Shown: piece after piece, positions 10,161 to 54,863 of the stretch
Position numbering within the stretch: the stretch's first letter is position 1
Layout: each line of letters opens with the position of its first letter
Assembly: GCF_901000735.1 (NCBI RefSeq)
Contig: NC_081542.1
Coordinates: 20,413,093 to 20,477,092, forward strand
Origin: Corylus avellana
Lineage: Eukaryota > Streptophyta > Magnoliopsida > Fagales > Betulaceae
DNA length: 64,000 nt
Direction: 5' to 3'
Program-made: the position numbers and the translations under genes
Notes under the pieces: model-generated
Database searches by the model: none
What the model saw: only the letters and a program-made list of their open reading frames with translations
Told to the model about the DNA's origin: nothing

Positions 10161-12609
10161 TTTCCAAGTGGTATAGCATGGAGGGCGAAAGCACAACTAC
10201 AGTTAGTGCACACTGATATTTGTGGGCCATTGGATCCCATATCATTTGGAGGTAACAGGTACTTCATTACCTTCATAGATGATTTTAGTAGAAAATCATG
10301 GGTTTATTTTCTCAAGGAGAAATCTTCAGCCTTAGTTGTTTTCAAGAACTTTAAGGCGCTCGCCGAAGGGGAGAGTAATTACAAGCTTGTAGTTGTCAGA
10401 TGTGATCGAGGGGGTGAGTACACCTCAAATGCATTTCAATATTTTTGCAGAGAAAATGGAATCAGACATCAACTCACTGCAGCCTATACCCCACAACAAA
10501 ATGGGATAGCGGAAAAGAAAAATTGCACTATCCTTGACATGACGAGATCCATGCTAAAAGAGAAAGGATTGCCGAAGCAATTGTGGGCGGAAGCTGTAGC
10601 ATGCTCGGTGTATTTGCTGAATAGGTGCCCAACAAAGAGTTTCAAAAACATGACACCTCAAGAAGCATGAAGTGGATACAAACCTAGTGTTGCACACCTT
10701 CGAATTTTTGGGTGGGTTGCATATGCTCAAGTTCCTGAAGCAAAAAGAAAGAAGCTTAATGATCGAGGTGAAAAGTGTATCTTTGTCGGCTACAGTGAGG
10801 AGTCAAAGGCATACAAGCTCTATAACCCACTAACAGCTAAAATAGTGGTTAGTAGAGATGTTGTCTTCAATGAAGAAGAAGCATGGAATTGGAGCAATAA
10901 AGAGGCGAACAAAGAAAATGCTGTCTCAGATGAATCTGAAGAGCAAACGCCAGTTTTGACTCTGTCTGCCCCACCAACATCTCCTCAACCTATTTCACTC
11001 TCTTCAATACACAGAAGTCCTACATCTGGTTCTTCATTTTCCAGTGACAGTAGTAACAGTGGAATTCCAACTCCTATCAAGATGGAAAGTCTTAGGGATG
11101 TCTATGAACGTTCAGAAGAAGAAGAAACAAATTTTTTTCTGTTTCTATGCAGATCATGAGCCTTTAACCTTTCAAGAAGCTGTTGAAGAAGACTGTTGGA
11201 GATCAGGTATGGAAGAAGAAATCTATGCTATTCAAAAGAATGACACTCCCACCAAAGAAGAAGACGATTGGTGTCAAATGGGTGTATAAGATCAAGCGAA
11301 TTGTAGATGGCAGTATTGATCGATATATGCCAAAGCTTGTAGCTAAAGGCTACAAACAGAAGCATGGAATTGACTATGAAGAAGTCGTTGCTCCAGTTGC
11401 TCGACTTGACACAGTGAGACTATTGATCTCACTTGCAGCCCATCGTAGTTGGAAGATATACCAACTGGATGTCAAATTAGCTTTTCTCAATGAAGTACTT
11501 GAGGAAGAAGTGTACGTGGAACAATCAGAAGGTTTTATTTCACAAGGAAAAGAAGATAAGGTGTATCGTTTGAAGAAGGCTTTGTATGGCCTAAAGCAAG
11601 CACCACGAGTTTGGAATGCTCGTATTGGTGATTATCTTCTACAAAATGGATTTATAAAATGTCCATATGAGCACTCTGTCTACATGAAGACTGACAACGA
11701 AGGAGAATTTCTGATACTTTGTCTGTATGTGGATGATCTGTTTTTCATTGGTAGTAGTGAAAAGATATTTGCAGAGTTCAAGAAGTCCATGTTCAAAGAA
11801 TTTGAAATGGCTGACAATGGACTAATATCATATTTTTTTGGGATAGAAGTGAAGCAAGAAAATGGTGGAATATTTATCTCTCAAAAGAAATACATGAGAG
11901 AGATATTGGAAAAGTCCAAGATGGATAGCTGTAATGCTGTCAACACTCCTGTCGCAACAGGACTGAAGCTGTCAAAAGAAGGAGAAGGAAAGCTTGTTGA
12001 TTCAACCCTGTACAGGAGTCTCCTCGGAAGCTTGAGATATTTGACAATGACAAGGCCTGACATACTCTATAGCGTTGGACTCGTAAGTCGTTATATGGAG
12101 ACACCAAGAGAATCTCATTGGCTAACTGCAAAGAGGATTCTAAGGTATATTACTCATATAGTGACTGGGGAGGTGACTAAGATGAGAGAAAAAGCACAAC
12201 TGGTCATGTGTTCTATCTTGGTTCAACCGCTTTTTCTTGGACATCTAGGAAGCAGGCAATTGTAGCTCTATCCTCATGTGAAGCAGAGTACATAGCAATT
12301 TCCTCTACTGTTTGTGAAGCCATATGGTTAAGAAATCTTTTGGAGTCGCTGAATCACCCAAAAGAAAAATCTACTGTGATTCCTGTGGACAACAAGTCAG
12401 CAATCAAGCTCTCAAAGAATCCAATGCAACATGGAAGGAGCAAGCATATTGATACCAGATTTCATTTTCTAAGGGACCATGTGAAGCAGAAGACAATTGA
12501 ACTTGAGTATTGTAATACCAAGGAACAAGTGACTGATATCTTTACAAAGCCACTGCCAGTCGAACCCTTCAACATGTTACGTGAGATGCTTGACATGAAG
12601 GCATTTTGA
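10161..12609 (+). pseudogene. Ty1/copia pol (integrase-RT-RNase H), broken
   Basis: This is a well-preserved but interrupted copia polyprotein. Integrase core: HTDICGPL at 10205, the second aspartate in CDRGGEYTS and the glutamate in QQNGIAEKKN. An in-frame TGA follows at 10668-10670. The integrase end continues (IFVGYSEESKAYKLYNP), then a Ser/Pro-rich linker to a stop near 11157. A frameshift leads into reverse transcriptase (11183-12160) with KWVYKIK, IYQLDVKLAFLN, ALYGLKQAPR and the catalytic YVDD at 11726-11737. Another frameshift near 12160-12205 precedes RNase H (12208-12609: ALSSCEAEYIA, DNKSAIKLSKNP, HGRSKHID, DIFTKPLP). The C-terminus is intact and is followed at once by a polypurine tract and LTR. 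Gag, protease and the 5' LTR are lost at the gap ending 10160. The short linker and motif set suggest a copia lineage other than the element at 5150-8230. Confidence 0.95.
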
Positions 12610-13066: not shown

Positions 13067-13663
13067 ATTACAAACTCTAAAATATAAAACAATAAACAAG
13101 TCCTACACAAAGCACTCAAACTTAAACAAATCATAAAACTAATAATTCTCCACCATATCTTAGAAGATATGTCTATGTCCACCGAATAGATTAGATATGA
13201 TATGCCCAAGATATGATCTTTCCTTTCTCAATATCTTTGTCTTCTTGTCATCATTAATCCACTCATTTTTATTTGAAGCCAATTTCAACAATGTGATCCT
13301 GTTGAAAATGTGTGTGAATCGCAACAATGTAATAACACCTCTCAACAGCCCGAAAGCGAAAAGGATTCTTATCCCATTTAGCAATTTTCATGAATCTAGT
13401 AACCTTGGCGTTAAAATATGAACTCTCCAACACTTGGAATAGTCACTTTTATTGCTTTAATCAATTTCTCGTAAACAATGTGAATAATTATTTCAAGTCT
13501 ATTCATTTTTTTTAATAAATAAAATAATCAATTTTGTGTACTAAATGCATCCTTAATCTTTTGAATAATATTTTACAAAACTTTGTTCGTACGTACTAAA
13601 TTATGAGAGGGGAGAGATAGTTAACGAAAATTTGGGTGGATCTTAAATTTGTTTCCATGGATT
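13067..13663. other. Unassigned, AT-rich
   Basis: I recognise no gene or repeat between the copia LTR and the CACTA element. Short open frames on both strands have no motif. The last three bases (ATT, 13661-13663) are the left target duplication of the CACTA transposon. Confidence 0.5.
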
Positions 13664-14310
13664 CACTACAAGAATTTAGGTCTTTAGGGGCGACTTGGAG
13701 TCGACCCTAAAAGTCTTAAAGTGGACGCTGTTGACAACAGCGTCGACTTTTCGACCCTAAAGGTGTCGACGCTAATAGTCCGGCCCTAATGATCAAATGC
13801 GTGATTATCAGCGTCTACTTAAAGTCGACCCTAATGATCACTTTTAGCATCCACTTTATCGACGCTAAAAGTCAAAATGTTTTGACCCTAAAGATGATGT
13901 AAACGGAAGCCATAGTCGACCCTAATAGTCAACCATTAGCGTCCACTAAAAGTGGACGCTGATAGTTAACCATTAGCATCCACAAAGTGGACCCTAATGG
14001 TCCTAAAATTTTTTTTAAAAAAAATAACTATCAGCGTCCAAACCAAAGTGGACGCTGATAGTTAACCATTAGCGTCCACAAAGTGGACCCTAATGATCCT
14101 AAAAAAATTTTTCAAAAAAATTAACTATCAGCTTCCAAACCAAAGTGGACGCCGATAGTTAACCATTAGCGTCCACAAAGTGGACCCTAATGGTCCTAAA
14201 AAAAAAAAAAAAAAAATTAACTATCAGCGTCCAAACCAAAGTGGACGTTGATAGTTAACCATTAGCGTCCACAAAGTGGACCCTAATGGTCCTAAAAAAT
14301 AAAAAAATAA
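13664..14310. repeat. CACTA left end: TIR and subterminal repeats
   Basis: After the terminal CACTACAAGAA come many direct and inverted copies of AGCGTCCAC, AGTCGACCCTAA and AGTGGACCCTAATGGTCC. From about 13930, a unit of roughly 65-70 bp containing ACTATCAGCGTCCAAACCAA and TTAGCGTCCACAAAGTGGAC repeats four times, separated by A-rich stretches. Confidence 0.9.
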
Positions 14311-14323
14311 AATAATCTGCGAT

Positions 14324-14472
14324 CGATCACACAATCGTGTGCGATCGATCACAATACCAGTAGGTTTTCGACATTTTGCGATCGATCGCACTTCGCAAAA
14401 TATAAAAAACCTACTTGAAAACCCACTGGTACTGCGATCGATCGCACTCCAAGTGCGATCGATCACAGAACT
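14324..14472. repeat. GCGATCGATC-rich inverted repeat inside the CACTA
   Basis: GCGATCGATCACA or GCGATCGATCGCA occurs six times in 150 bp, in both orientations. The two halves (around ACCAGTAGGTTTTC and its inverse GAAAACCCACTGGT) can pair as a stem. The repeated GATCGATC core is itself palindromic. Its role is unknown. Confidence 0.75.
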
Positions 14473-15308
14473 AGGGAACAGATTCATATATTCGTGAAAC
14501 TTAGATTTCTCTTGGCTGCCTTAGAATCCATTTTGGGCTCTATTTTATAATCATTATATGCTGGTTTAAGAGATCCATTAAACTGAAAAATGATGTGCAT
14601 GTTTGGCGGTAAGGATATCTTTTCTAACTTTCATCCTTGTTCAATTCGGTAGCTTACTTGAGAAAAGACAATAAAAAGAATATGGAGAGTTAACCATAGA
14701 TTATGGTTATCTCATTCTGTTTAGGTAATACGTTTTTATTCCAATAACCTAAGCTAAGTGTTTTGGGTTAGGCAATTCTCCCACAGCTGCCCTGTATGCG
14801 TAAAAGAAATTGTAGCTGAATGAACTAACTTTCAGTTGCTTAGCATTTCCTTGGTCTAGGCAAAAATTAATAAATATGGATTTTGGCTGTGGAAAAATAT
14901 GAAGATTGAGAGGAGAATATTAGCATTTCCTTGGCATTCAGTTTGCTGGAATTTTGACAGGATATTGATAGCTAGTGCAGCCAAGTGCAGGATTTACTCA
15001 TGAATTTATGGCTGGAAATTTCGAAACTCTATAAATGTTCCCCTAAAAACATTTATAAAAAGGAAATCTTACCAAGCTTAAAATACATACACAAACATAT
15101 TTAGGCTTTCATAACACTAACCTTTTTATAGGGATATTCAAGTCAACAATATAATGGAGTGTAAAACTAATAAATTCCTGCACATTTTCAATCCATCAGG
15201 ACAAGGAATTGACAAATATAGTATGCTAGAAAATGTTTTGTACAGAGTTTTAGTCTACCATACAACTCTATAACCTACACCCATAGCCATTCTCACTATC
15301 CATTATTA
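14473..15308. other. CACTA interior without recognised content
   Basis: I see no coding similarity in this stretch. It could be intron or flanking sequence captured together with the phosphomannomutase fragment to its right, but nothing in the sequence proves it. Confidence 0.4.
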
Positions 15309-15998
15309 CTATAGGCTCGCAGAAGATGCTTTATGAGCCACAAGACCATTCTCAGAAAATACATAATCGTAGTCATCAATAACTGCAAAGAGAAAAGAGA
15401 CACTTAATAGTATAGTCATGTACATATGAAAAATTGTGAAGTAGACAACTGCATTTGGCCCTGATTTTGAGAACTATTGAAAACCAATCAGATAATGCTT
15501 ATAAAGGTTAGACTTGAAACTCATTTATAATCCATAGAAAACATAATGCTTGATTGTCAAGGGTCATGACGAATATTCACATGAAAAATACATTTGAAAG
15601 CTAAGAACCAAAGTATATTTTTAGATCATGTTGAAACAAATGGAATAATCAAACAGATTTTGGGTTCCTAGCTCTTATAGCTAAGCAATTACCTTTCGAA
15701 GTTCCCGCGTGAATTCTAACAGCATTGGAGTGACCACCTAGCATTTGAGTGGAAAAAGTTGCATCAAAGACAATTTCAAGCGGATACATGGAAATGTTAC
15801 TTCCATGCAATAAATCTAAGAAATAACAACTTGCTTACATATATCCTATGCTGCTGTGACCATAATAATATAAACAATACAATGGAACAAAATTAGGAAG
15901 CAAAATGAATCAGAGAAGAAAATCGGTACCTTTCTTGGAGCAGTAAGGGTCCCATCCACATCAAATAAAGCAATTAAACCACGATTCCTAATGGCCAT
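15309..15998 (-). pseudogene. PMM: Phosphomannomutase gene fragment (captured)
   Basis: Phosphomannomutase converts mannose-6-phosphate to mannose-1-phosphate for GDP-mannose and ascorbate synthesis. Three exon-like pieces are visible on the minus strand. Exon 1 (15998-15930, 23 codons) starts MAIRNRGLIALFDVDGTLTA, with the catalytic DVDGT motif of this HAD-family enzyme, and ends at a GT donor. Exon 2 (15737-15693, 15 codons) reads VVTPMLLEFTRELRK between AG and GT sites, in phase with exon 1. A third piece (15382-15309) reads IDDYDYVFSENGLVAHK after an AG acceptor, then diverges to a stop at 15309-15311. The exon that normally joins the last two (with the GGSDL motif) is absent, and so is everything after. 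Splicing exon 2 to the third piece would be out of frame. It lies inside the CACTA, 68 bp from the nested LTR element. Confidence 0.9.
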
Positions 15999-16065
15999 TT
16001 CGCTCAAGATATTTTTCTGCAACACCAAATCCACAATATCACAACATCAAAATTATGTAAGACAC

Positions 16066-17319
16066 TGATAAGTGCCAAATATTGCATATTTCGACACTTT
16101 TATTTACATTAGTTAATCCTTTAGTTGTGTCGTTATTTAATATTTTGTGTTAGTTTTGTGTTTTTAGTATTTTGTAGGTCGTTAAAAAAAAACTACAGCT
16201 TTAAAGGGAAAAATGCGAAGTTTGGAAGAAAGCATATTTTGAGAAGACCTAGATGATGTGGTTAAGTTCAACCAAATCCAAGGAAAAGGTTAAATCGGAT
16301 TAATGATCAGATTGGATAAGATTCCGGATCGGATTCAAATTCAGATTCTGCACACGTATCAGTATTTTGACTGATTTTCCTAATTCGGACGGTTTCTATG
16401 CCAAAATCGCCCCGCAATTATAGGACACAAATCTGGACGAATCCTATTCCGATTTCAGACTTCTATTTTGACTAGGAGACAGACCTCCGAATTATCTAGG
16501 TTTACTTGGGCTTTTAGAACTTTCCTAAGCCTATAAATAGACTTCTTTGCATTCAAGAAAAGATACACAATCTCATTGAGCAAAATTCTTTTGTTTAGTT
16601 TTTCTTTAGGTTTAGGTTTAGGTTTAGATTTTATTTTTATGTGGAGCTAAATTCCCAACTAATGTTGGGGATGAAGCCTCACCGATGAAGAACAACATCA
16701 CTTTTATGTAAGTTTTTATTATTCTGATTTTATTGGGTTTTATATTTCAATTGTTTTACTTTTAATCAATTGTATGGAGTGATTCTTGGATATCTCTTGT
16801 GATTCAAGGATACATGTGATGATTTGAGATAATTTCATATGATTGATTGCTTGGCTTTTAACTCATAAAAATTGGATATCCCTTGTGATTTGTTCTACGG
16901 ATACATCTGGTGTTTCAATTGAATTTGGATTCCTTTTGTGATTTGGTCAATGAATGGATACATGGGATGGTTTGATTAATTCTTTGAAGCATAGTAAAAC
17001 ATATCTATGATTTAATTTGTGAGAACTTCGGATTAATATTGATGAACATAAAGTATGTTGTTATGATTTGGTGAGTGTGAATTCTCAAACCTTAGTACCT
17101 TTATCCTTAGATTTACTTATTTTATTTAGTTTATGTTTATCCTTTAATTTTCAAAAACTCAAAAATCAAAACCCTTTTGGAACTAGATTAGGATTTAATT
17201 AGTTTAGATATAAATTGCTCTTTCAAAAATACAATTCTCTGTGGGATCGACCTCGCACTTGCAATCCATTAAATTACAATTGATTCTTGCACTTGCGAGC
17301 TAAATAAATTTGCACAACA
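16066..17319 (+). repeat. 5' LTR of the nested element
   Basis: 1254 bp, TG...CA ends, partner of 20491-21744. A TATA-like CCTATAAATAGAC lies near 16528. A TTTAGG-rich run lies at 16608-16628. The U5-like end contains GTGGGATCGACCTCGCACTTG, also found in the diverged LTR ending at 9948. Confidence 0.95.
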
Positions 17320-17325
17320 AGTTTT

Positions 17326-17343
17326 TGGCGCCGTTGCCAGGGA
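17326..17343 (+). promoter_or_regulatory. Primer-binding site, tRNA-Asp type
   Basis: TGGCGCCGTTGCCAGGGA begins seven bases after the 5' LTR. This sequence is the usual minus-strand primer site of Athila-like plant gypsy elements. Confidence 0.85.
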
Positions 17344-17756
17344 ATTGTTCAATTTTTGAAACCAATTTATTTCTAAATTAGTGTTATTCTTCTACTAGTT
17401 ATAATTAGGATTTTATTTTTCTGCAATTTGTTTTGTTTTATTCGTGTTTCTAATAAAAAAAAAAGATTTTTCTTGTTGTTTTTTGTTTTGTTTGGCTTGT
17501 TTTACAGTTCTGCCGCAGCACCTTCCACACATCAGCGCGATTGAGCGCACTCACAACAAAGGCAGCAGTTCCATAGTTCTTTGCCAAAAAATTTATTTTT
17601 GGTCCTTTTTGTGAGTTTTTAAATTTTTTTTCTTATTTTTTTATTTTATTTTATTTGTGTTATTTTTTTTGGTTTAGTTTATTTTATTTTATTTTTTTAA
17701 AAAAATGGTTAATGTTTTATGTGGGATATCTGCATGCTAAAAAGTGAGGGGGAAGC

Positions 17757-19080
17757 ATGAATTTTCATTTTAATGATTTTAATGCATCTCCTAGTTATAG
17801 GACACCAACTCCTACCAACTACCATCAAAATTTTTACCTACATAAACCATGTTCATACTGCTTCAATCTCTATCATCATTATAGTGATTGTCCATCATGG
17901 AGACAAGCTTCTAATTTTCCATATGAGCAAATGAACACTAGTTTCTCCAGTCCAGGGTTTGATTCAAATTCCAATTATTACAACCCACACTGGAGCAACC
18001 AATCTAATTTCTCATGGTCAGCTCAGGCTACAGGAAATTATGCTCACCAATTTGATGAATTGCACCATTCAGAATATCCGCAATTCGATCATCAAGCTCA
18101 ACCTCCTGTTTATCAGTCTACCACTCAAGTGCCACAACCTGCACCACAGTCATCACCAGAAGACATGATGAAAACATTAATAGAAAAAGCCGACCAATCC
18201 AACTCACAAACCATACAAGAACTGCGTCAATTCAATCAAGAGCTCAAAGATGAACTGAATCAATTCAATCAAGAGCTCAAAGATGAACTGCATCAATTCA
18301 ATCAAGAGCTCAAAGATGCCAATACTCATGCTACCGCAGGGATGGAAGAATGGATTGGCGAGAGTGAGAATGAACATCCATCTGAACATCAACTTGACCC
18401 AATGACTCAATATTGGGACAATGAGAGCATAGAGGATAACAATGAGGAACAAGAGCTTCAAGGACACCTGATGGCTAAAGGACACTACATGATTGTTGAG
18501 GATGAGTCCGAAAATTCTTATCATGAGCATGTCCAAGCCACCTCCAACTTTGAAAGAGAGGAAAGTGCTACAAGAAATTATCTTCTTAAAGATGAGGAAA
18601 TTGTGGATAACAAAGAGGAGCACGCAGAGCAAGTTGAGCATGCTCAAGTTACCACCACACTTGAGAGTGAGAAAATTGTTGATAACATTGAGGAGGAAGA
18701 AAAAGAAGAAGAATTGAGCACCCTGAGCAAGTTGAGCACCATGAGAATAGTGAGCCCCCAATGGATCCTAATCTGCCCAGTGACATGGAAGTGAGTACTG
18801 AAGCTCCTGCCTACATCAATGTCCCTCTTGAGACATATCAAGAGCCTAAAGCTTCATCGCCTGAATGTCTTAAAGAGCCATCTTATGTCAAGATACTCAA
18901 AAGACTTGTTCACACAAGCACACAAATTTAGGAACCACTTTCCTAAGAAGATCCTTGGAAGCAAGAAATTCTACATAAGATGGCGAAATATCCTTCCAGA
19001 GGGCTATAAAGTTTTGAAATAGAAGGGGTGGAAGGGATTGGTTGGACATCCGCATGATAGGGGGAAACGCTATAAAGTTT
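17757..19080 (+). pseudogene. Gag-like CCHC zinc-knuckle protein of the nested element, frameshifted
   Basis: The first frame (17757-18794, 345 codons) starts at an ATG about 410 bp after the primer site. A CCHC knuckle (C32, C35, H40, C45; CSYCFNLYHHYSDC) suggests RNA binding in a particle. The next 100 residues are Asn/Ser/Gln/Tyr-rich (NPHWSNQSNFSW). An 11-residue coiled-coil motif QFNQELKDEL repeats three times (33-bp tandem repeat at 18227-18319), followed by a Glu-rich tail. Near 18717 the frame shifts. The other frame continues with ETYQEPKASSPECLKEPSY, shifts again near 18895 and continues with FRNHFPKKILGSKKFYIRWR, then after a stop at 19019 with KGWKGLVGHPHDRGKRYKVF. Plant genomes carry many copies of this protein type. 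Two frameshifts and the stop make this copy non-functional. Confidence 0.8.
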
Positions 19081-20490
19081 TCTCCTCCAGTTTATTTTCT
19101 GCACTTCACTCCAAAAATTCTTTCTTTCTTTTTTGTTCTTTACATGTTAATTTTATTTGCTTTTGTTTCTAACAGCAATTAATCTTTTGATATTTGTTTT
19201 TATGAAAAAAATATTGCTGTTAGTTTTTGTTGACAGGTGTTTTGGTGTTTAAGTTTGGGGGACGCCCTAGCCTTCTTCACACTCAGATTTCCTTACTTCC
19301 GGTAATGTATTTCTACATTACACATTGAGGTCAATGTGTAATTTAAGTTTGGGGGTATGGAAAACACTTTGTCTGTTTAATTTTGTTTTTATTTGTCATT
19401 TTGTGTTAAAAAAAAAAAAATTGTGCTATGTTGTTGTCAAGTTTGAGTTAAACTATAACTGTGATTTACATTTCATTTGCTTGCTTAAAGGGTTGAACAA
19501 ATTATTATGTTATTAGGAGTCAGAATCCCTTGACTTATTTTTGGGTAAAAGAGATTTCACTTGTTTTGAGATAAATTTTCATGAGCACATTAGTATGTTT
19601 TCTATGAGGTATGATGTTTGAGCTTAGGCTTGTTCTCTTTGAGATTTGTTGGATGACCTATTGATGAATAACCATTGGCTTGCAAGATATAAAAAAAAAA
19701 TAAAAAAATAAATAAAAAAGAGAAGGAAAAAGAAAAGAAAGATCATGTTGAGTTTTCCGCTGAGTAACCGGACCTCTTGCCTCATTAACCATTGAGTGTT
19801 CGCGTAAAAAGGTGTGAAGTTCAGTGTTGATTTATGATATGGCTAATCTAACTTCGTAGCCTTTTTGACTTAAGTTAATAAGATCTTAGGAATGTTCTAC
19901 ATCTAGTGCCCTAAAGCCACCTGGCTTGGGAGTCATTGGCCTAACACTTGTTACATGAGTCAATTAGAAAGCCTAAGGGAGTTAGACATTGTAGAGCCTG
20001 TAAAAAAAAAAAGAAAAAAAAAATGCATATCTTGCCTTGGTTGTTTCATTTGATAGAGATTCTTACAAATTTTATGGAACTTGTCTTGAGTTTAAGCTAA
20101 AAACTTCATGATTGTATGCTAATTACACTTTACACATTTCAGAACATATGAGGTCTAAATTGTCCATTTATGAGTGATTTGAATATGGATTTCCTTTTGA
20201 CAGTGATGAAGGTGTTTGTCTTTTTAAGCTTGTTCATGAATAAGAACTAGGGTTTATGTGAAATTTCTTTCTTGTTAACAACATAGTGCACAATGTTTGT
20301 GGGTATCATTCCTGTTAAGCCCTCACGAGACTTCACTCGTCCACTAGGGATGCCTAGGGGTTTAAAAGGCTTGTTGCATATGCTAAATGCAATCGTCTCT
20401 CCCACGAAAGAGGATTTATGTTTCTTGCTTTCATTTTATTTTTCGTTTTGTTTTGCTAAGGGACTAGTAAAATGTAAGTTTTAGGGTGTT
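19081..20490 (+). other. 3' noncoding interior of the nested element
   Basis: No reading frame is recognised. AAGTTTGGGGG occurs at 19250 and 19342, resembling the polypurine-like tracts scattered in Athila-type 3' regions. Poly-A runs occur at 19410, 19690 and 20000. The stretch just before the 3' LTR (AAGTTTTAGGGTGTT) is the likely functional polypurine tract. Confidence 0.6.
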
Positions 20491-21744
20491 TGATAAGTGC
20501 CAAATATTGCATATTTCGACCCCTTTATTTACATTAGTTAATCCTTTAGTTGTGTCGTTATTTAATATTTTGTGTTAGTTTTGTGTTTTTAGTATTTTGT
20601 AGGTCGTTGAAGAAAAACTACAGCTTTAAAAGAAAAAATGCGAAGTTTGGAAGAAAGCATATTTTGAGAAGACCTAGATGATGTGGTTAAGTTCAACCAA
20701 ATCCAAGGAAAAGGTTAAATCGGATTAATGATCAGATTGGATAAGATTTCGGATTAGATTCAAATTCAGATTCTGCACATGTATCAGTATTTTGACTGAT
20801 TTTCCTAATTCAGACAGTTTCTATGCCAAAATCGCCCCGCAATTATAGGACACAAATCTGGACGAATCCTATTCGATTTCAGACTTCTATTTTGACTAGG
20901 AGACAGACCTCCGAATTATCTAGGTTTACTTGGGCTTTTAGGACTTTCCTAAGCCTATAAATAGGCTTCTTTGCATTCAAGAAAATGGACACAATCCCAG
21001 AGAGCAAAATTCTTTTGTTTAGTTTTTCTTTAGGTTTAGGTTTAGGTTTAGATTTTATTTTTATGTGGAGCTAAATTCCCAACTAAGGTTGGGGATGAAG
21101 CCTCACCGATGAAGAACAACATCACTTTTATGTAAGTTTTTATTATTCTGATTTTATTGGGTTTTTTATTTCAATTGTTTTACTTTTAATCAATTGTATG
21201 GAGTGATTCTTGGATATCTCTTGTGATTCAAGAATACATGTGATGATTTGAGATGATTTCATATGATTGATTGCTTAGCTTTTAACTCATAAAAATTGAA
21301 TATCCTTTGTGATTTGTTCTACGGATACATCTGGTATTTCAATTGAATTTGGATTCCTTTTGTGATTTGATCAATGAATGGATACATGGGATGGTTTTGA
21401 TTAATTCTTTGAAGCATAGTAAAACATATCTATGATTTAATTTGTGAGAACTTCGGATTAATATTGATGAACATAAAGTATATTGTTATGATTTGGTGAG
21501 TGTGAATTCCCAAACCTTAGTACCTTTATCCTTAGATTTACTTATTTTATTTAGTTTATGTTTATCCTTTAATTTTCAAAAACTCAAAAATCAAAACCCT
21601 TTTGGAACTAGATTAGGATTTAATTAGTTTAGATATAAATTGCTCTTTCAAAAATATAATTCTCTGTGGGATCGACCTCGCACTTGCAATCCATTAAACT
21701 ACAATTGATTCATGCACTTGCGAGTTAAATAAATTTGCACAACA
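20491..21744 (+). repeat. 3' LTR of the nested element
   Basis: 1254 bp, the same length as the 5' LTR with roughly 3% difference by eye. It is followed by the right target duplication GACAC. Confidence 0.95.
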
Positions 21745-21749
21745 GACAC

Positions 21750-22553
21750 CACCATTATACCACTAAAACTTTAATAACTAGACAACTAACCGTATCCACA
21801 ATAGATGACCAAAACACATAAGACCCAACTTATTCTAAAGCCAGCGCACCATCCCAAAAAAATAAATAAATAATTAAAAATTAAAAATGCATCTTCTCCA
21901 CTGTCACACAACCAAAACAAGCTTTAGCCAAAGAGCTAAAAAAATTCAACACAATCTCTCAAAAAACCATAGCCTCATGTATGTTTAGTGTACATAGTTT
22001 TTATTAGATGCATTCTCTTGCTAGCGTCAGCTGAAATTAGCTCACAGTACAATTACCAAATGGGAATTTCAAGAAATGGGCATTGTGCTGAAAACAGAGG
22101 AGCAGATTCTCAAAGGGACTGATTGGGAAATCAGGACTCGAGTAATGCGTGCAGGGAAATTCAAGAAATCTGAAATAAATAGGGATCTGTGTTGCAGATC
22201 GGGGCTTCAAGATAGAATTCTATGTAAATAAAGTTGTTAATCAGTTTGATTTGAAGGAGTCTCTAATGTCTTTGTAGTTTGTTGTTTGTCTGTAGAAGGT
22301 GGTCTCAGTTTGTAGCAGTAGTAAATTTGTGCGCAGTAGCAGTAGGTAGTTGTGTAAGTTTGTTTTAGTAAAATGATGCTCATTCATCCAAAAACAAATT
22401 TCTACAAATGGGGTTTATACAAGAACAAAGAGAACATGGCAGAGGACAAGAAAAGGCAGAAATTTGAAGATGAAAAATATCATAGAACAAGAACCCAAAA
22501 ACTTAAATACAAAAACTGAGAAAAATAAAAATAACAGAGAGTGAGAGAGAGAC
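21750..22553. other. CACTA interior without recognised content
   Basis: Past the nested element the CACTA interior resumes. No coding similarity was recognised before the DJ-1D fragment. It could be intron or flanking sequence carried with the captured genes. Confidence 0.4.
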
Positions 22554-22670
22554 CTAATGACCAGAAGACTGATGAACGGCAGTGCAGCAGATATCGCCGG
22601 CCTTCTTACCGGGGCACACGGCATCAACAGAGACTCCAAATGCCTGCAACGCTTGAAAAGGAACCATCGC
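22554..22670 (-). pseudogene. DJ1D: DJ-1 homolog D gene fragment (captured exon)
   Basis: Plant DJ-1D proteins belong to the DJ-1/PfpI family; glyoxalase III or deglycase activity has been reported for family members. Reading the minus strand after an AG acceptor at 22671-22672, 38 codons give [20 protein letters not shown] followed by [18 protein letters not shown], then TAG. This matches the family's exon that follows the opening LCGDYMEDYE stretch. The normal continuation after GH (QTYSESRGHNF) is lost and replaced by CT-rich sequence. The first exon and the catalytic nucleophile-elbow region are absent. Upstream on the same strand (22990-22700) is CT-rich sequence with GGCGC motifs that could be a captured 5' leader. 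The piece lies inside the CACTA between the nested retrotransposon and the 18S fragments. Confidence 0.85.
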
Positions 22671-22728
22671 CTGCAATCAAAAATCACACTGCAAGACATT
22701 AATCACATACATCAATTCAAAGGTGCGC

Positions 22729-22840
22729 CGGAGAGAGAGCTTAGTGCGCCGGAGAGAGAGAGACTAGCGCCGGAGTGAGAGAGAGAGAGAGAGAGAGAGT
22801 GAGAGTGATGAGGGAGGTGAGTGAGAGGGAGAGAGAGGCA
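22729..22840. repeat. GA-rich microsatellite region
   Basis: (GA)n runs interspersed with GCGCCGGAG, densest at 22771-22810. On the minus strand this is a CT-rich tract 60-170 bp upstream of the DJ-1D exon, like many plant 5' leaders. Confidence 0.8.
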
Positions 22841-23070
22841 GAAATTTCAGAAATTTGAGGGATTTTGGTGTTTTTGAGGTTTGGGGGAAAAAAACACGGT
22901 GTCTGAAATTTTTGGTTCGAAAATTTCATACACCGCGCGCGCCACTTGTTTGCGCAAAAATTGAGCATAATCAGCAGCAACAAATTTGGTCGCCACTATT
23001 TAGGATTTTTTTTTTTTTTTTTAAATTATACCTACAATATTTTTAGAATAATTAAGTACCTATATATATA

Positions 23071-23184
23071 TTAACTGATTTAATGAGCCATTCGCAGTTT
23101 CAAAGTCTGAATTAGTTCATACTTACACATGCATGGCTTAATCTTTGAGACAAGCATATGACTACTGGCAGGATCAACTAGGTA
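23071..23184 (-). pseudogene. 18S rRNA gene fragment, nucleotides about 1-114
   Basis: The minus strand reads TACCTAGTTGATCCTGCCAG, the start of plant 18S rRNA with one change from TACCTGG. It continues through CATATGCTTGTCTCAAAG, AAGCCATGCATGTGTAAG and TTAAATCAGTTA. It ends where AT-rich CACTA sequence begins. As an isolated piece it cannot give a functional rRNA. Confidence 0.93.
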
Positions 23185-23339
23185 CGAACCCTAATTCTCT
23201 GCCACCCGTCACCACCATAGTAGGCCTCTATCCTACCATCGAAAGTTGATAGGGCAGAAATTTGAATGATGTATCGCCGGCACGATGGCCGTGCGATCCG
23301 TCGAGTTATCATGAATCATCAGAGCAATGGGCAGAGCCC
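23185..23339 (-). pseudogene. 18S rRNA gene fragment, nucleotides about 230-385
   Basis: The minus strand reads GGGCTCTGCCCATTGCTCTG, then ATGATTCATGATAACTCGAC, TCAAATTTCTGCCCTATC and GAGAATTAGGGTTCG. This is a later block of the same 18S gene. It is joined directly, with no spacer, to the block for nucleotides 1-114, but in reverse of the normal order: reading the minus strand, 230-385 comes before 1-114. Nucleotides 115-229 are missing. Confidence 0.93.
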
Positions 23340-24248
23340 TATATATATATTAGTAATTAAATAGTATATGTTATATGAATAATTTAATATTTATGTGTAT
23401 GTATTAGTTGACATACTAACTAGTTAGTTCATAAATTAACATATTACTTAGTTAATTAATATATATTAAGTAAATATAATTAAGTAAATGTTACTCAATA
23501 CTTCTATGTATATTACTTATTTTATTATACATGTGTGTGTTATATATTAGTATTGACATACTACCTAGTAACTAGTTAGTTAATAAACTAACATATTAAC
23601 TAAGTTAATATATATTAAATTACTAACTTACTATAATTAACTATAGGTTATTTTGACAAACAAAAAAATTATATGTTACTTAATATTTGTATGAGTATTA
23701 TATATATGAATATATATTATATACATACTTGTTAGTTATTATATACTAACTTAGTATTACTATTAAGTTAAGTGGTAGATCACATGATCTAAAGATTATG
23801 TGAATTGTAATTAGAAAAAAAAAAAAAAAGATTATGTGAATTATTATATCATATAGTCATATATATCACAAATTAAGTGATTAATATTAGAATCAACAAT
23901 GAGTTTGTTTAGAGATATATGTTGTTGTTATGTTTAGAGTATTACGTTGTAGATATCATTATAAGTTAGATGTTACAACATATATATGGTCTACCATTAT
24001 AATTTATATAATTATATAAAATGATCAATTGATGATTAAATCATATGATTATATAATAACAAAATATACATATATAATATGACGTAAGTCAGAAGTATAC
24101 AAACTCATACAAATACAACAATTAAGTACCCAGAGACTTAATAACTAGTTACTTAATAAACTAACATATTAACTAAGTTAATATATTAAATTACTAACCT
24201 AGTATAATTTACTACAGGTTATTTTGACAAAAACAAATTATATGTTAC

Positions 24249-24289
<41 letters not shown>

Positions 24290-24740
24290 CATACTTGTTC
24301 GTTAATATATATTAACTTAGTATTACTAAGTAAGTTAACTATTTTCAAAAAACAATGATATGATGATGTGTACTATCATTCTAATTACATTAGATCATAG
24401 TTAATTAGTTAATTAAGTATGCTCTAGTGTAATTAGAATGATAATACATATGAACATGATCAAATAATGTTTTTTTTTTTTTTTTGAAAACTTTGTCCTA
24501 TTCTTCATGAATTAAGTTTCATAATATTTAAGTATAATGTATTATCACTATAGTTTATATGATTATATGACATGATCAACTGATTATTAAATCATGTGAT
24601 TATATAATAACAAATTATACATATATAATATGATATAAATATACAAATACATACTAAAACAATAATTAAGTATCTAGAGACTTAGTTTCAATGTATGTTA
24701 TAAGTCCATCTATGTTATACATTACTTTTCAAAAAGTTTT
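23340..24740. repeat. AT-rich CACTA interior with direct repeats
   Basis: Very AT-rich. A block with AACTAACATATTAACTAAG, a TTACTAAC stretch and GGTTATTTTGACAAA occurs near 23580-23780 and again near 24150-24320. (TA)n lies at 24250-24283. The outer part (about 24350-24740) recurs in inverted orientation at 63610-64000 in the second CACTA copy. Confidence 0.8.
24374..24443. repeat. 70-bp near-perfect palindrome
   Basis: Left arm TATCATTCTAATTACATTAG pairs with right arm CTAGTGTAATTAGAATGATA around TTAATTAGTTAATTAA. It recurs at 63913-63982 in the other CACTA copy, so it belongs to the family. Confidence 0.9.
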
Positions 24741-25617
24741 AGTGGATGCTATTGACCTTGTAGTTTAATTTTATTCTTTTTTTTTTTTAATTTTTTAGAA
24801 GAGCTTTAGCGTCCACCAAAGTGGACGCTAATGCTCAGTTATCAGAGTCCACTTTTAATGGACGCTATTGGGCACAGTTTTATTTTTTTATTTTTATTTT
24901 TATTTTTCTACCTACTCTTTAGCGTCCACTTTTAGTGGACGCTATTGGGCATCAATTTTATTTTTGTAATTTGTATTTTTATTTTTCGACCGACTCTTTA
25001 GCGTCCACAAAGTCGACCCTAATACTTAACTATTAGGGGCGACTATCAAAGTCGACCCTAATACTTAAGTATTAGCGTCCACTTTTAGTGGACGCTATTG
25101 GGTACAATTTTTTTTTTTTTTTTTATTCTACCTACTCTTTAGCGTCCACAGAGTGGACCCTAATACTTAACTATTAGGGGCGACTTTCAAAGTCGACCCT
25201 AATACTTAAGTATTAGCGTCCACTTTTAGTGGACGCTATTGGTCATCAATTTTAATTTTTTATTTATTTTTTTAATTTTTCTACCTACTCTTTAGGGTCG
25301 ACACCCTATTGATCTTTTATTTGATTGTTTTTCTTTTTTTATTTTTTTCCAGCTTTTAGCGTCCACTTATAATAGTCGACGCTAAAAGTTTTTTTTTGGT
25401 CACTTAAATTTTTCCCGCCCCTTAATAATTCCCGCGTGTATATTAGGGTCAACTTATTAGCGACGCTAATAGTCAACCTTTCGACCCATTATTAGCGTCC
25501 ACTTTGATGTAGACGCTAATACTTAACTATTAGGGGCGACTTTCAAAAGTCGCCCCTAATAGTTGAGTATTAGGGGCGACTTTTTAGTCGCCCCTGATGA
25601 GCAACTTTCTTGTAGTG
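24741..25617. repeat. CACTA right end: subterminal repeats and TIR
   Basis: Repeated TTAGCGTCCACTTTTAGTGG palindromes (each of the form TTAGCGTCCAC/GTGGACGCTA), CTACCTACTCTTTAGCGTCC units and TAGGGGCGACTTTCAAAGTC palindromes lead to the terminal TTCTTGTAGTG. Repeat content mirrors the left end. Confidence 0.9.
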
Positions 25618-27182
25618 ATTTATTCACCTTGAACAAGATCAGGTTATGGTGCATTAGGTTTGAGATGCATGGTTTATTTTTAGGAAGATATAAGTATAGC
25701 ACCGACTTGGGGAGGCTTATCCATATGGACAACTTTGGTCCAATGAAATCAAATGCCGACGTCCATGTATTGAAATAGTTGAAAAAAGAAGAAAGGGTTC
25801 TGAATAATCCTTATCTAATCCTAGCAAGCTGGAGAATGTCGATCAAGTGGGCAGGGCGTGACTCCCTCCAATCCATATAATATGAGAGAAATGACATCAA
25901 AAGAAAATATGTTTAATTATAAGATTCTACTTCCGAGTGATTGAGGTGTTAATCAAGATTGCATTTTTGGAAATGTAAATATTTTATTGCATAGACAGAG
26001 TTTTTCATGCTAGATATATCTAGCTACCAGATAAAAAGCAATTTAAGACTCTTTTTGTTTCGACCTAAAATACTTTTTGAAAAACGCTTTTTTAATTGTT
26101 TGGTGTTCGGTATGACCTAAAACTTATGATCAAACTGAAAATATTTTTTTCGGTTGATTAAAAAAAACTTATTTAATTTCCGTAAAATGGGTTTTCTTTT
26201 ATAAAACCGTAAGCAATTTTTTGAGATTGAGCTTCTCATTCTTGTACATGCATGCTCTCTCTTAGCTTGCACACACACACACACACGCATAATAGGGGTA
26301 TAATCAACCTAGATGCTCAAAACCATAAGCTTCTCATTTTCTTTCTCCTTCATTTTGACGATTGAATCTAATTCCCTCAGGTAGAAAATTGAAAGAAAAA
26401 AACAAGATTCCTCTTCAACCGTTGGAATCATTCCTAAACACATTCTACTAATAGGAGTTAACTTAGCTTGATTAAAGATTGGGGTATTACAAAACATATT
26501 GTTGATGTTGGGTGAACTAATTAAGCATTTTTGTATGATCGAGTACATTAAATAGAGTGTCACTGGTCAAAAATGGAATTTTGGTAGAGTCTCACCACCT
26601 AGGAAACATAAGTCACACCTCAAATAGAGAAACCACATCTCAAGATAATTAGCATAAAACTTTAATACTTTCATTGATCCAAATAAACTTGGCTACATTG
26701 ATATATATAGGAACCAATCTCTTATTTGATAAAGTACTAGAACCACAACTAAATGATAACTATTACTAGGATAACATAAATGATACACAATGGCCGGTAC
26801 TTTAGTAATTGATTACACATAAACTATGTTTATTGAAATGATAAGATAATTAAACAACTCCTTTTGCTGGCCGTTGTGTGACTCTACATAAGGAAGTTCC
26901 TGTAAATGGTAGCTTGACTATAATCAGCACACTATGGGCTTATAGAGAAAATTACAAAGGAAAATAAAAATAATGGTAGTTCTAAGCAATGAAGATCACG
27001 TTGAATTCTTGATGGAAATGATTCATAAGAACATCAATTCAAAGTCCTCTTTTGCTCAATTCTTTCTCCAGCCTTCCTTGTTTAAAAACTCTTGACCACC
27101 TTTAACAAATTAATTTGTCTTCCTCTTTGTTTCACTTGCATTTCAGATTACTAATCACTTGCCCAATGATCAACATCTTCTG
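25618..27182. other. Intergenic; AC microsatellite; downstream of the ankyrin gene
   Basis: ATT at 25618-25620 is the right CACTA target duplication. An (AC)n run lies at about 26269-26286. The stretch 26590-27182 lies directly downstream of the minus-strand ankyrin gene and should contain its 3' untranslated region. I could not fix a polyadenylation site. Confidence 0.4.
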
Positions 27183-28559
27183 CTAAAATAGCTTATGTTT
27201 ATGTGGCCGAAAAAGAAACTTGGACGAGTATGTTGATCGCAAAATATCAACCCAAAGTTGATAATGTAGCAGAACAAATAAAGTAACTGGGATACTAGCA
27301 GAAGCAATTAGAATAATTGGAACCCATGCCACTTCACTGTAATAGAACAAAAAGCAAGTTGCACTAAAAGCTACAATCATGCTTGCTATAGAGACGAAGA
27401 GTGTTGTAAATCCAACCAACAACTTTGTAGGTAATGACATGAGAAAATCCTCTTCCGCATAACGTGAAGTCAAAATTGACAAAAATATTAGCATTGAAGT
27501 TGAAGAGAAGAGTAGTGCCAATGCATCTGATATGAAAAACACCATAAACCACTTACTTTTCAAAAAAATGGGTGTTCCTATTTCTTGATCGTTGCCACCT
27601 GGTACAGTAAAAGCTCCAGCAAAGACCACTGTGGCAATCAATGCGGCCACAAGCATGCAATAGTTTGCTGTGTCTTTCATCCACTTTTCTCCTTGTTCTT
27701 TTAACTCTTTATGTTTGTTTTTGAATAATTCCCAAGGTGTAGCCGCAAGTCCACCGTCTTGATCTATAACCCTAGGTTGACATTTTTTATCTGTATTTTC
27801 CGTCTTCGTGTTTGAAGGTGTATTCACAGCTTTATTGTCTTGATCTTTATCCTCAACTTGACCTTTTTGATATGTATTCTCCAAACATTCACAGATACAT
27901 ATATCCACACGTTTACTCTTTCGATCTATATTCTTCAACTTCTTGTATAAAGGCGGCACAATCTTTTCTATTTCCTACAATGATGGAGGTATAAATAATT
28001 TACAAAATGCAAGTGCAACCAATAAACATGCAACCAATAAACATGCAATCAAAAGAAAAAAAACAAATTCAAATCATATAATTATTACCACCCACCTTAA
28101 ACCATAGTAACTCTCGTTGCATTTGAAGGGGCGCTCCAGATATGATATTAAGTCGATCTAAAGGAGCCAATTGTCCAGCTAAGTGTAGCATGTTGAATTC
28201 ACTATTTGTGTATTTTGCAACCATACCCTTGATAGCGCCTAACTCATATATTAGATTGAACACATTCTCTTGTCGATGTCTAACAGCAATGTGAAATATT
28301 GTTTGTACGTTCTTGTCTACTCTCCATATGAGATCAGGATAAGAGCCTATTAGAATAATTAAATATTCAACATTCCCTAATTCTGCAGCTTCAAAAAGAA
28401 GAGATGAATGCTCCTCTAGGAGGTCTATGAACTTGTCTTCTGGCAATACTAGAACCTCTCTCCAAAGGAGTTGAACTAATTTATGAGCGGGTAATTGGAT
28501 CAAAGCTTTGTTACACGTCCCTTTGAACCCTGGGATTATTAAAAAAAAATAAATTAATT

Positions 28560-50970: not shown

Positions 50971-51297
50971 TGTAACAAACTGCATTAATTCATCCAAATA
51001 AAAGAGATTACAACAACAAAGAACAAAATGAAAATGCAAGCTTAACAGCAGAAACTGATATAGACAGACTCCAAGCACCTCAAAGTACTGGAAGAAGATA
51101 GTAACTTGCGAATGCAGCTGATGAAAGCTGCGGCGCACTTTGATGGATAAAACTATCTAAGGTAAGAAAACTCCTATAAACTTAAATCTACACAAGCTTC
51201 CAAAGAAACTGTGAAGATAAAGAAGATACATAACAAGGAAAAAGAGATTCCTTTCACAGCCAGAGAGTCTGAAGCCCAACCAGTTTAGGTTATTTTT
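50839..51297. other. Unassigned; (TA)n microsatellite
   Basis: (AT)n at about 50933-50970. The stretch 50985-51290 has no recognised coding content. It may contain the far side of the gene fragment seen to the right of the LTR element, but I could not align it to anything. Confidence 0.35.
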
Positions 51298-52167
51298 TGA
51301 AAAACGCTATGCCGACTCCAAAAACTTGTTTATCACAATTTATGCGGAATTAATATTATGTAGCAAAAAACAATTCAATCACCCAAAATATATAAAGCAA
51401 TAAAGAGGCAGACACAGATATTTTGGTTATGAAGAGGAAATCTTTTAGAAACCGATCTAAAAGTAAAACTTCTCCGGGGCAGCCAAACCCAGGAAATCAC
51501 TATCAAAAGATTATCCAGAGATTACAGACACTAGGAACACTTACAACCCTTTGCAAGGCCTTGGCTCTGTAAGATCGACAAGCCTACAACTCGTCTCCTT
51601 GCTCACAATCTTCTTCAACGTGATTCTCCTTTACCGGACCTTCCGATAGACTTCTCAACTGTAGATTTATCAAAGGAATAATTAAAACTCTAAGAGATTC
51701 AATTTAGCGCTCACCACATATGATCTCTCTTAGCACAGCCTCTGACGAACTCTCTGGGGGTGAAAATTCGTACTACTCTCTTCTATAATGATGCATATAT
51801 ACCCCCGACAAAACCCTAGACTTAACCCACTTAAAATCACGTTTTTGGGCCTAAAACTTACGGGGTGTCCGGACATGTTAATGGGCGGTCCGGACACGGC
51901 TTTGCGGAGCAAGATTTTAGTTTCTGGAAATGAGGTCCGGACCCGGGGAATTGAGGTCCGGACCCGGCCTGTCCAGTCTTGATCAACAGCTCCGATCGAT
52001 AGGCGTTTGTGGTCCGATTGAGCTGAAATTTTGCAGGGACATTCATAACACATGAATCTACATTATGAACGGTGAAGATTGGATTCTGAGCATCTATATC
52101 AGTGTTTGAGCCGTGAACAGTAGCATATGCATTTTGGAACTGAAGTAAGCCAACACAAGAACTAACA
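51298..52167 (-). repeat. 3' LTR of the gag-only element
   Basis: 870 bp, partner of 54864-55736. It contains CTCCGGGGCAGCCAAACCC, shared with the solo LTR at 5404-6440, and three GGTCCGGAC motifs at 51887-51965. Confidence 0.95.
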
Positions 52168-53812
52168 AACTCCTCCTTTGGCAATTCAGTGACAAAACCA
52201 AAATGTCGAGCCAATCCCATCATCTCCCCATATTTACTCCCCCTTTTTGTCACAGAATGACAAAAGGTCTTCATGTTTCCTGAAACACTTCACAAAATAT
52301 ATCAAGGCATATGTGGAACAAGAAGACATAAATAAAACTCATGATAAAAAAATGACGTAGAATGCGTGATTATAAAGAAACATCAACAAAACTCCCCCTC
52401 AATGTATGACTCAATTAACAACAGGAAACTGAAAATGCAAAGCATGTTTCTCCCCTTTAAAAGTTAAATGAACACACATGATAACACATCAATGACTCAT
52501 GTATTGCACAATGAATATCCAAACATGCTCCAAATATGTAAAATATACATGAGACTAGAAATGGCTAGAAACTCATATTGCTTAACCCAAGCCAAGAAAA
52601 TGTTCCATTCAACTTATGCTTGTGTGGTGTGTGGGTAAGCCATCCAAAGAGAAAAAATTTCAATTTACAAAATGAGGAGAAAGTTTCACCACCATGAGGT
52701 TTTGACAAGTATATCAAATCAAAAGTTAAACCTTATCATACTAGGGCCTAGCCACTCTCATCCTATACATTTCTCTTTGTAAAATATTTTGCACAAGTTT
52801 GACACAGTGAAATAAATTCCTTTTGGAATATGATCTTTTGATTTTATTTGTTTCACTATTTTGTTTATTTTTCTCTTTGAAAAAGTGTCCTTAAACTTTT
52901 GGTGCTTATCACAAAAGAGAAAGCAGGAATTTTTAAGCCCTAAGTTCAACTAGCATATGGTCAATTTGAAAAATATGACTAGTCAAAAACCTCATATAGC
53001 TACCTAACAGACCTCACAAATAAAGTGAAACAAAACCTCAATTTAAGCTTAAATGTGCACAAAAGATAAAGCATAGGCAAAATGTACCACATAAGCTCAG
53101 GCTTTAGGTAACCACAAAAACAACTCCATTGACACAAATTTTCATCTCATGCATATTAAGAACATTCCAAGACGTAAGGAATTACATCCATAAAACGCAA
53201 CATGAGAAATTAATGGACTATCTAGGTGCATAAGACAAAAGAAAGAAAAAGAAACAATCAAAGTAACATATTTTTGTCTTTTTGAAATTTTTCACAAAAG
53301 AAATGCACACAAAAGAAAAACAAATGCAAAACAAAGAAAAATGCAATGCAAAACAAAACAACATGCTTGAATTGAGATTACAACAGGCAAGACATAAATG
53401 TCCTTTAGCATTAAACTTTCATCACATCTTATAGGTCCCACTACAAAATAATGATTTGGTTTAATAACTACTTCTAGGTCTTCACAAGACATTACACATT
53501 CCTGAACATTTGATTAGCAAGTAGACAAAAATCTTGGTGGTCCGCACACAACATCTCATCTATAAGCTTTTCAAAGATCATGATATATGAATTTCTTGAA
53601 AAATCCTTTATGAATATGCCTCAAAACATGAATCTCAAAACAATCATGTATATACTCTTCATACAGAAAGTGTAACAACAAAAACAATGCAATGCATAAA
53701 CAATAAAACAAAAACAAAAAAAAATGCAAAAAAAAAAAAAAACAACATGTTCTAGGATATTACAAAATAAGCAAAACAATCAATCCTAGGCATGTTATTG
53801 ACTCACCTAACT
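52168..53812 (-). other. Noncoding interior of the gag-only element
   Basis: Between the gag stop and the 3' LTR lies 1.6 kb of A-rich sequence without pol motifs. ACTCCCCCTCAATG occurs at 52389 and near 53834. On the minus strand the polypurine tract AAAGGAGGAGTT lies next to 52167. Confidence 0.7.
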
Positions 53813-54793
53813 TTAGGTGAGATCACTACCACTCCCCCTCAATGGGTGAATGATATCATCCTTCCTAACCCACACTTGAGAAATCTTAGGTCTAGACTTA
53901 TGACTTTGCTCAAACTTATCTAGCCTAGATAGCACTTCTCTCATCATTATGACCAAACCCTCACTTTCTTTCCTAGAATAGGAATTTTCACTTTTATGCT
54001 TATGGGATTTCAAATCAAAACAATTTGATCGAATATGACCAACCTTTCCACAATGATGACAAGTGAGCACAAACCTTTTAGAAGGTAATTTTCTATGAGG
54101 ATGCATGACTCTAAGCTTAGGGTAAGATGCATGATGCTTAACATAAATTTTCTTACATTTCTTACCATGGAGAGTCGGAGCAGCTGCATGATTTTCTTTC
54201 TTTGGAGCAGCTTTGAATTTCCAACAGTTTGGTCTAATGTGACCAACAATCCCACAATGATGGCATGTAGGAAAAAACTTACCTTGAGTTTGTTTAACTG
54301 AAGGAGTCTTAGAAAAATTAGCCTTGGTTTCTTTAACATTCACAGGCTTAACATTCAAGGACTCATTAGAAACATGTGAAGTAGATGCACCAACATTATC
54401 AACAATCATACTAGGCTTGTTAGGAACAAATTCTTCAGTACAAAGAAAACTTTTCAAATTATCACTAGAGAAATTTCGTGAGAGTTCCTTAGAAACATTC
54501 AATTCATTCTCAAGTGATAAAGACTTTTCAACAAGCACAGAAATCTCAGATTTCAAAGAATCAATCAAGATATGTGATTTAGACAAATCATTCGCCAAAG
54601 ATTCTTTATCAGATTTCAAAGAATCAATTAGGACATATGATTCAGACAATTCATTAACAATAGATTCATTCACATGTTTAAGATCTTGAAAATCTCCCAA
54701 ACAATTTGTGTATTGATGTCTCAAAATAGTGAATTTTTCCAACAAATTGTTGAAGGAGTTTATAAGATCATATTCCCCTTGAGAAGTATTCAT
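53813..54793 (-). CDS. Gag-like protein with two CCHC zinc knuckles
   Basis: 326 residues from ATG at 54793 (57 bp after the primer site) to TGA or TAG before 53813, with no interruption. Residues 15-110 form a probable coiled coil with a repeated SHILIDSLKS/SYVLIDSLKS motif. Two retroviral-type knuckles follow: CHHCGIVGHIRPNC (C177, C180, H185, C190) and CHHCGKVGHIRSNC (C245, C248, H253, C258), each preceded by basic stretches. The C-terminus reads SQVWVRKDDIIHPLRGSGSD, as in gag ends of some copia elements. The N-terminal gag domain usual in copia polyproteins is not evident, so this looks like the central and C-terminal part of gag. It presumably binds the element's RNA. The intact frame despite about 4% LTR divergence is notable. 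Confidence 0.9.
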   Translation of the reverse strand: MNTSQGEYDLINSFNNLLEKFTILRHQYTNCLGDFQDLKHVNESIVNELSESYVLIDSLKSDKESLANDLSKSHILIDSLKSEISVLVEKSLSLENELNVSKELSRNFSSDNLKSFLCTEEFVPNKPSMIVDNVGASTSHVSNESLNVKPVNVKETKANFSKTPSVKQTQGKFFPTCHHCGIVGHIRPNCWKFKAAPKKENHAAAPTLHGKKCKKIYVKHHASYPKLRVMHPHRKLPSKRFVLTCHHCGKVGHIRSNCFDLKSHKHKSENSYSRKESEGLVIMMREVLSRLDKFEQSHKSRPKISQVWVRKDDIIHPLRGSGSDLT

Positions 54794-54849
54794 AGCAAAC
54801 AGGAGTCAACAGATCTCACTCAAGAATTTAATCCAAACAGAGTGAACCC

Positions 54850-54861
54850 GCTCTGATACCA
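54850..54861 (-). promoter_or_regulatory. Primer-binding site, initiator-Met tRNA type
   Basis: Minus-strand TGGTATCAGAGC two bases inside the 5' LTR edge (54864). Standard primer site of copia elements. Confidence 0.9.
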
Positions 54862-54863
54862 AT

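Follow-up and report, generated by a model that had tools for sequence, protein, structure and literature searches.

A Pack-CACTA element of hazelnut with DNA from several sources and a permuted piece of 18S rDNA

Layout and ends of the element

The window is a 64,000-nucleotide stretch of contig C2 of hazelnut (Corylus avellana; C2:20413093-20477092), and positions are counted from its first letter unless a contig is named. At 13664-25617 it holds a non-autonomous Pack-CACTA copy, assembled from several sources and belonging to a dispersed family. Inward from the left end, a subterminal repeat region (13664-14316) is followed by a foldback (inverted-repeat) stretch of CGATCGATC (14317-14469), a captured stretch termed segment 4, pieces of a phosphomannomutase (PMM) gene interrupted by a nested long terminal repeat (LTR) retrotransposon, a piece of a DJ-1D gene, and two pieces of 18S ribosomal DNA (rDNA) in permuted order. 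The stretch between DJ-1D and the rDNA (22723-23059) is in part 70-74% similar to two relatives without rDNA (L020 and L021). On the other side lie an AT-rich core that is also present in rDNA-less relatives (23340-24730) and the subterminal repeats and terminal inverted repeat of the right end (24731-25617).

The left terminal inverted repeat, CACTACAAGAA, starts at 13664 (13664-13674, plus strand), and its counterpart, TTCTTGTAGTG, finishes at 25617. Both are flanked by ATT (13661-13663 and 25618-25620), which forms the target-site duplication, and both ends share AGGGGCGACT at the identical offset, bases 23-32. The motif TAGCGTCCAC/GTGGACGCTA occurs four times in the left end, 12 times in the right end and five times in a second family member at 63316-64000, which lies in the opposite orientation (minus strand) and is incomplete because of an N gap and the end of the window; the rest of the window has none. 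In 100 dinucleotide shuffles of the window with N removed, no inward end pair with matching 3-bp flanks was found 0.5-30 kb apart, and single 11-mers averaged 0.03 per shuffle. The element thus shows the hallmarks of the CACTA superfamily, namely CACTA terminal inverted repeats together with subterminal direct and inverted repeats. The first-pass annotation of this DNA had proposed such ends, the ATT duplication and subterminal repeats, and the end pair, shuffles and motif counts bear this out; the two ends belong to one family rather than to different elements.

Captured segments and their likely donors

The PMM segment lies on the minus strand and comprises three blocks. Block c (15025-15326) contains exon 6 (15122-15177) and the start of exon 7; block b (15329-15672) contains part of exon 4 (about 15328-15382); and block a is divided by the retrotransposon into 15673-16065, with exon 2 (about 15693-15737) and exon 1 from its ATG (15930-15998), and 21750-21965, the upstream side of exon 1. 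Their translation matches PF03332 (E 2.4e-10) and phosphomannomutases in the PDB (E 3.9e-12) with a joined query, up to ten residues of which (SSASLIENVQ) are not PMM exon, and donor DNA matches of 95.5-99.1% confirm the identity independently. Outside the elements, five PMM genes or pieces were found, two on C2, two on C7 and one on C11. Among the four compared, the C11 gene at 3.69 Mb is the only one whose match extends to the joint between PMM and DJ-1D (window 15672-21969, 95.5%; 15329-15674, 99.1%; 15025-15326, 97.4%), and by these matches it is the likely donor. The blocks are collinear in this gene, which has between them about 196 bp (exon 3) and about 744 bp (the end of exon 4 and exon 5) that the element lacks, and one block joint has a 3-bp CTC microhomology.

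The DJ-1D segment (21966-22722, minus strand) consists of exon 2 (22554-22670) and, on each side of it, part of the adjoining intron. It matches Arabidopsis DJ-1D structures (E about 1e-26); AG and GT border the exon in the window, and its final codon reads TAG. A DJ-1D gene on C5 at 31.02 Mb (gene 2) agrees with the segment in 732 of 770 alignment columns, with sharp edges at 21966 and 22722, and a second C5 gene (gene 1) in 720 of 776; gene 2 is the likely donor. Seven element copies form one clade, separate from both donor genes (support 97/95), in a tree that left out L015, a copy differing from the others by 5.2-5.9% over a shorter stretch. GA-rich sequence flanking the exon was considered as a capture signature and dropped, as the left GA stretch lies within the donor match. 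An annotated Carpinus fangiana DJ-1D protein (P0321) has an intron-like stretch resembling the translated DJ-1D intron of the window, probably through a gene-model error.

Since exon 2 is retained with parts of both introns, PMM and DJ-1D were captured at the DNA level. The first-pass annotation had reasoned likewise from the intron-bearing fragments, and the introns do match those of the donors: PMM and DJ-1D genes with matching introns are present elsewhere in the same genome. It had also placed the PMM, DJ-1D and 18S pieces on one strand, which is correct, all being on the minus strand. The alternative that the fragments simply sit in their ordinary genomic context does not agree with likely donors at other loci.

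In a copy of the element on C8, segment 4 (14470-15024) runs on into 1.6 kb of sequence with 91% identity to C2:23522367-23523940. This C2 locus, at 23.52 Mb, is the likely donor as judged by that alignment; the gene recognised in the donor stretch, a GDSL lipase, falls outside the captured part. At five other places segment 4 is represented by just 150-361 bp, with 97-99% identity (C3:15177597, C5:6562932, C2:41605848, C3:15633643 and C2:40054312). At two of them, on C5 and at C3:15.63 Mb, it adjoins CACTA left ends, and the five may be earlier or reduced forms. Thus the original proposal of a Pack-type CACTA stands, but its three sources become four: C11, C5, C2 and rDNA.

The rDNA piece is read on the minus strand as 18S positions 227-381 (23185-23339) fused directly to positions 1-113 (23072-23184), that is, in permuted order; positions follow what we take to be the numbering of the Arabidopsis 18S sequence. 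The first-pass annotation, which listed 18S rRNA among the fragments, had not noticed this permutation. Scans of short stretches gave RF01960 matches of 106 and 81 bits, and wider scans did not list this family. One fragment aligned from model position 1, so it starts at the mature 5′ end of 18S; the other aligned to 223-386, its end overrunning the joint. The arrangement is identical at all six rDNA-bearing loci found, a count that covers 38 fetched loci, some overlapping, plus the window, and it most likely formed once. A comparison of the 18S reference with viral contigs gave no matches.

In the window the rDNA block is bracketed by a direct repeat, CTATATATATATTA (23060-23073 and 23339-23352). 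Beyond the block the copies diverge: the window and L009 continue into the AT-rich core (from 23340), but L010, L011 and L013 continue into a 0.8-kb stretch that they share with relatives lacking rDNA. We take this difference to reflect an exchange at the TA repeat that adjoins the rDNA. The direct repeat was rejected as proof of a target duplication, because it sits in a TA run and the right flank differs in other copies. Two candidate empty sites were likewise set aside. One, within the window, was uninformative since nothing but poly-T in the left flank matched the core; the other was offered by rDNA-less relatives, of which L020 and L021 are only 70-74% similar on the left side and L016 is largely N there.

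Copies of the family and order of events

All copy counts are lower bounds. PMM, DJ-1D or rDNA pieces are carried by at least 11 loci on eight contigs, the PMM segment by at least nine (40 of 547 candidates scored) and DJ-1D exon 2 by eight elements (22 of 22 candidates scored). PMM exons, DJ-1D and rDNA occur together in five copies, namely the window, C1, C3, C5 and C8:8.8 Mb, those on C5 and C8 being broken up by insertions; in a copy on C6, DJ-1D and rDNA are accompanied by no more of the PMM piece than its upstream end. Other CACTA copies that carry or lack individual pieces, which the first-pass annotation had suggested looking for, therefore exist. With host gene fragments that have donors elsewhere, and with several dispersed copies of the same capture, the family shows features of Pack-TYPE elements. 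As joints are common to different loci, these are copies of one assembled element. Three of the four copies with both ends read have a 3-bp target duplication (window, ATT; L019, TTT; C8:8.8 Mb, AGT).

The C8 copy (C8:8782476-8799341; CATTACAAGAA ends) differs in structure. It retains PMM sequence past the point at which the others stop, together with DJ-1D exons 2 and 3, and its PMM is 97.7-98.8% identical to the C11 gene. The shortened joint between PMM and DJ-1D is the same at eight loci (window, C1, C3, C5, C6, C7, C2:19.58 Mb and C8:18.58 Mb), and comparison with C11 and with the C8:8.8 Mb copy indicates that it arose by deletion of a stretch bordered at either end by the 4-bp microhomology ACCA. 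We therefore read the shortened form as derived. This C8 copy has CATTA in place of CACTA at both ends (L031 3977 and L012 9342), with its AGT duplication matching.

The nested retrotransposon (16066-21744, plus strand) has 1254-bp LTRs (16066-17319 and 20491-21744; 1218 matches and 35 mismatches over 1253 compared sites, K 0.029) and a GACAC target duplication. Among the nine PMM-bearing loci it is confined to the window copy. The GACAC site is single, and hence empty, at all eight others and in the PMM donor gene, so the retrotransposon inserted after the capture. Its interior has a single overlapping pair of open reading frames (ORFs) of at least 120 residues, on opposite strands; the longer is gag-like by inspection and below every Pfam cutoff.

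Several points weigh against this account. No transposase family was matched at E 0.1 among 33 scanned ORFs (at least 45 residues) of the 138 listed; this is expected of a non-autonomous copy and only weakens a claim of autonomy. The fourth copy with both ends read, L010, has mismatched flanks (cct/ttt). Structure is the ground for calling the C8:8.8 Mb copy ancestral-like; of the six rDNA pieces, however, its own has diverged furthest (8.6% from the Arabidopsis 18S reference, 6.3-7.1% from the others), and C8 could have seen a second capture later on. L015, which has DJ-1D, no rDNA and an N gap upstream, was placed in an unresolved part of the tree and yields no order for the DJ-1D and rDNA captures. 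Movement of the copies is read from their sequences.

In a relative without rDNA on C3 (16.13-16.14 Mb; L021 from 5848 into L022), a fragment of cytochrome P450 (PF00067, 1.8e-7) is found together with a glutamine amidotransferase class II match (PF00310, 7.5e-6), which suggests that gene capture in the wider family extends to other genes. A kinesin match in L021 is not claimed, as its E of 0.046 is below the curated cutoff and it has no PDB match.

Elsewhere in the window, 10206-12609 contains the remains of a Copia-type retrotransposon (integrase core and RVT_2), and at 51297-55736 two 0.87-kb direct repeats, 95.8% identical, enclose a zinc-knuckle ORF, probably as another LTR retrotransposon. 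Pieces encoding a PGG-domain protein and a potassium transporter (PF02705) lie at 27183-27959 and 58753-59220, respectively. At 60894-62143, Rfam matches to MIR477 and MIR5565 fall below threshold, occur on both strands and are likely inverted-repeat artefacts.

Route of capture and relation to known elements

We propose that four nuclear sources contributed DNA to an ancestral CACTA element, most likely when breaks or gaps within it were repaired by copying other loci and joining the copies at short microhomologies. Such template copying is the likeliest route, though unproven. The assembled element would then have spread by cut-and-paste with transposase supplied in trans, as suggested by the target duplications and shared joints. 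Comparison of the copies supports three later steps: a deletion at the 4-bp microhomology would have taken out extra PMM and DJ-1D sequence, an exchange would have occurred at the TA repeat beside the rDNA, and the LTR retrotransposon would have entered the window copy. We hold this explanation as a whole, a Pack-CACTA copy that drew on four sources, most likely by repair copying, and was later spread, as it seems, by transposition, with high confidence. No function is indicated for the captured pieces, and chimeric transcription is possible.

The foremost alternative is that neighbouring CACTA insertions fused, such that two elements flanking a host stretch lost their inner ends and moved as one. 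This was proposed for Arabidopsis Pack-CACTA (review PMC13317346; PMC8903248), and insertion of one CACTA element into another does occur in the family, in the C5 copy with an ATA duplication at the site of window 21994-21996. Fusion nevertheless has to account for one element uniting sources from three contigs and rDNA, and for PMM being present as three collinear blocks with donor gaps and a microhomology at one joint. Moreover, the only end-like site (at most two mismatches) in 14470-16065 and 21750-22722 is at 22687, inside donor-matching DJ-1D. On balance we consider fusion unlikely, bearing in mind that the original joint between PMM and DJ-1D in the C8:8.8 Mb copy was read only in part against both donors. 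The second element on C5 is at 5.19-5.21 Mb (L013 and L033), and at C8:18.58 Mb (L032) a CACTA end is found at the same point.

For the rDNA, a separate RNA-templated arrival can also be envisaged, in which 18S rRNA was copied to its 5′ end, synthesis jumped to a second rRNA at position 381, and the product was inserted at the TA repeat. It would explain why the fragment begins at position 1 and joins position 381 without extra bases, and why a 14-bp direct repeat encloses the window's rDNA block. That repeat, however, is a TA run: a length of at least 13 is reached by about 0.1% of 20000 random pairs from the AT-rich core, yet by one of 27 TATATATA pairs. In addition, no poly-A was seen, the right flank differs in L010, L011 and L013, and a permuted rDNA circle or a template switch at the DNA level would account for the piece equally well, which leaves an RNA template rather improbable. 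More doubtful still is the full version of this history, in which a reverse transcriptase copying mature 18S rRNA would have run past its 5′ end and switched to another rRNA molecule, the CACTA element would have taken up the product, and DNA transposition would then have multiplied it. If true, a DNA transposon would carry and spread a processed-rRNA fusion beside DNA-level gene captures. It is scarcely credible that the fragments are not cargo and that each inserted on its own into an old CACTA element as background, as the nested LTR retrotransposon exactly did, because identical joints are found at several loci of different contigs and the pieces must have travelled together.

Capture from several sources, which we favour here, is a known behaviour. 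Tgm-Express1, a 5.7-kb soybean CACTA element, contains five host gene fragments including introns (PMC1947982). The hazelnut element resembles it in carrying several such fragments, and differs in having an 18S rDNA source and in that several copies and donors were compared. Maize Pack-CACTA elements contain DNA from several loci (PMC8903248); the main texts of that report and PMC13317346 have no instance of the words rRNA or rDNA, whereas the hazelnut element has a permuted 18S piece. Ribosomal sequence inside CACTA elements has a precedent in a single sentence of PMC5688495, citing Wicker 2003, on elements with 5S rDNA-like sequence, there 5S and here 18S. Chenopodium CACTA elements likewise combine captured gene fragments with tandem repeats in the form of satellite arrays, and the main text of PMC8978399 has neither the word rRNA nor rDNA. 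In the open-licence literature, no title or abstract opening was found that reports an 18S piece in a CACTA element, an absence that is weak evidence.

The multi-source Pack-CACTA is thus an element of a known kind. Its unusual features are the permutation of the 18S piece and a history whose order can be read in part. How DNA transposons capture host genes is still debated. Because this one genome offers likely donors, a long copy alongside shortened ones, and relatives lacking single pieces, repair copying and fusion can be compared joint by joint, and the 18S fusion provides a ready marker for tracing the family.

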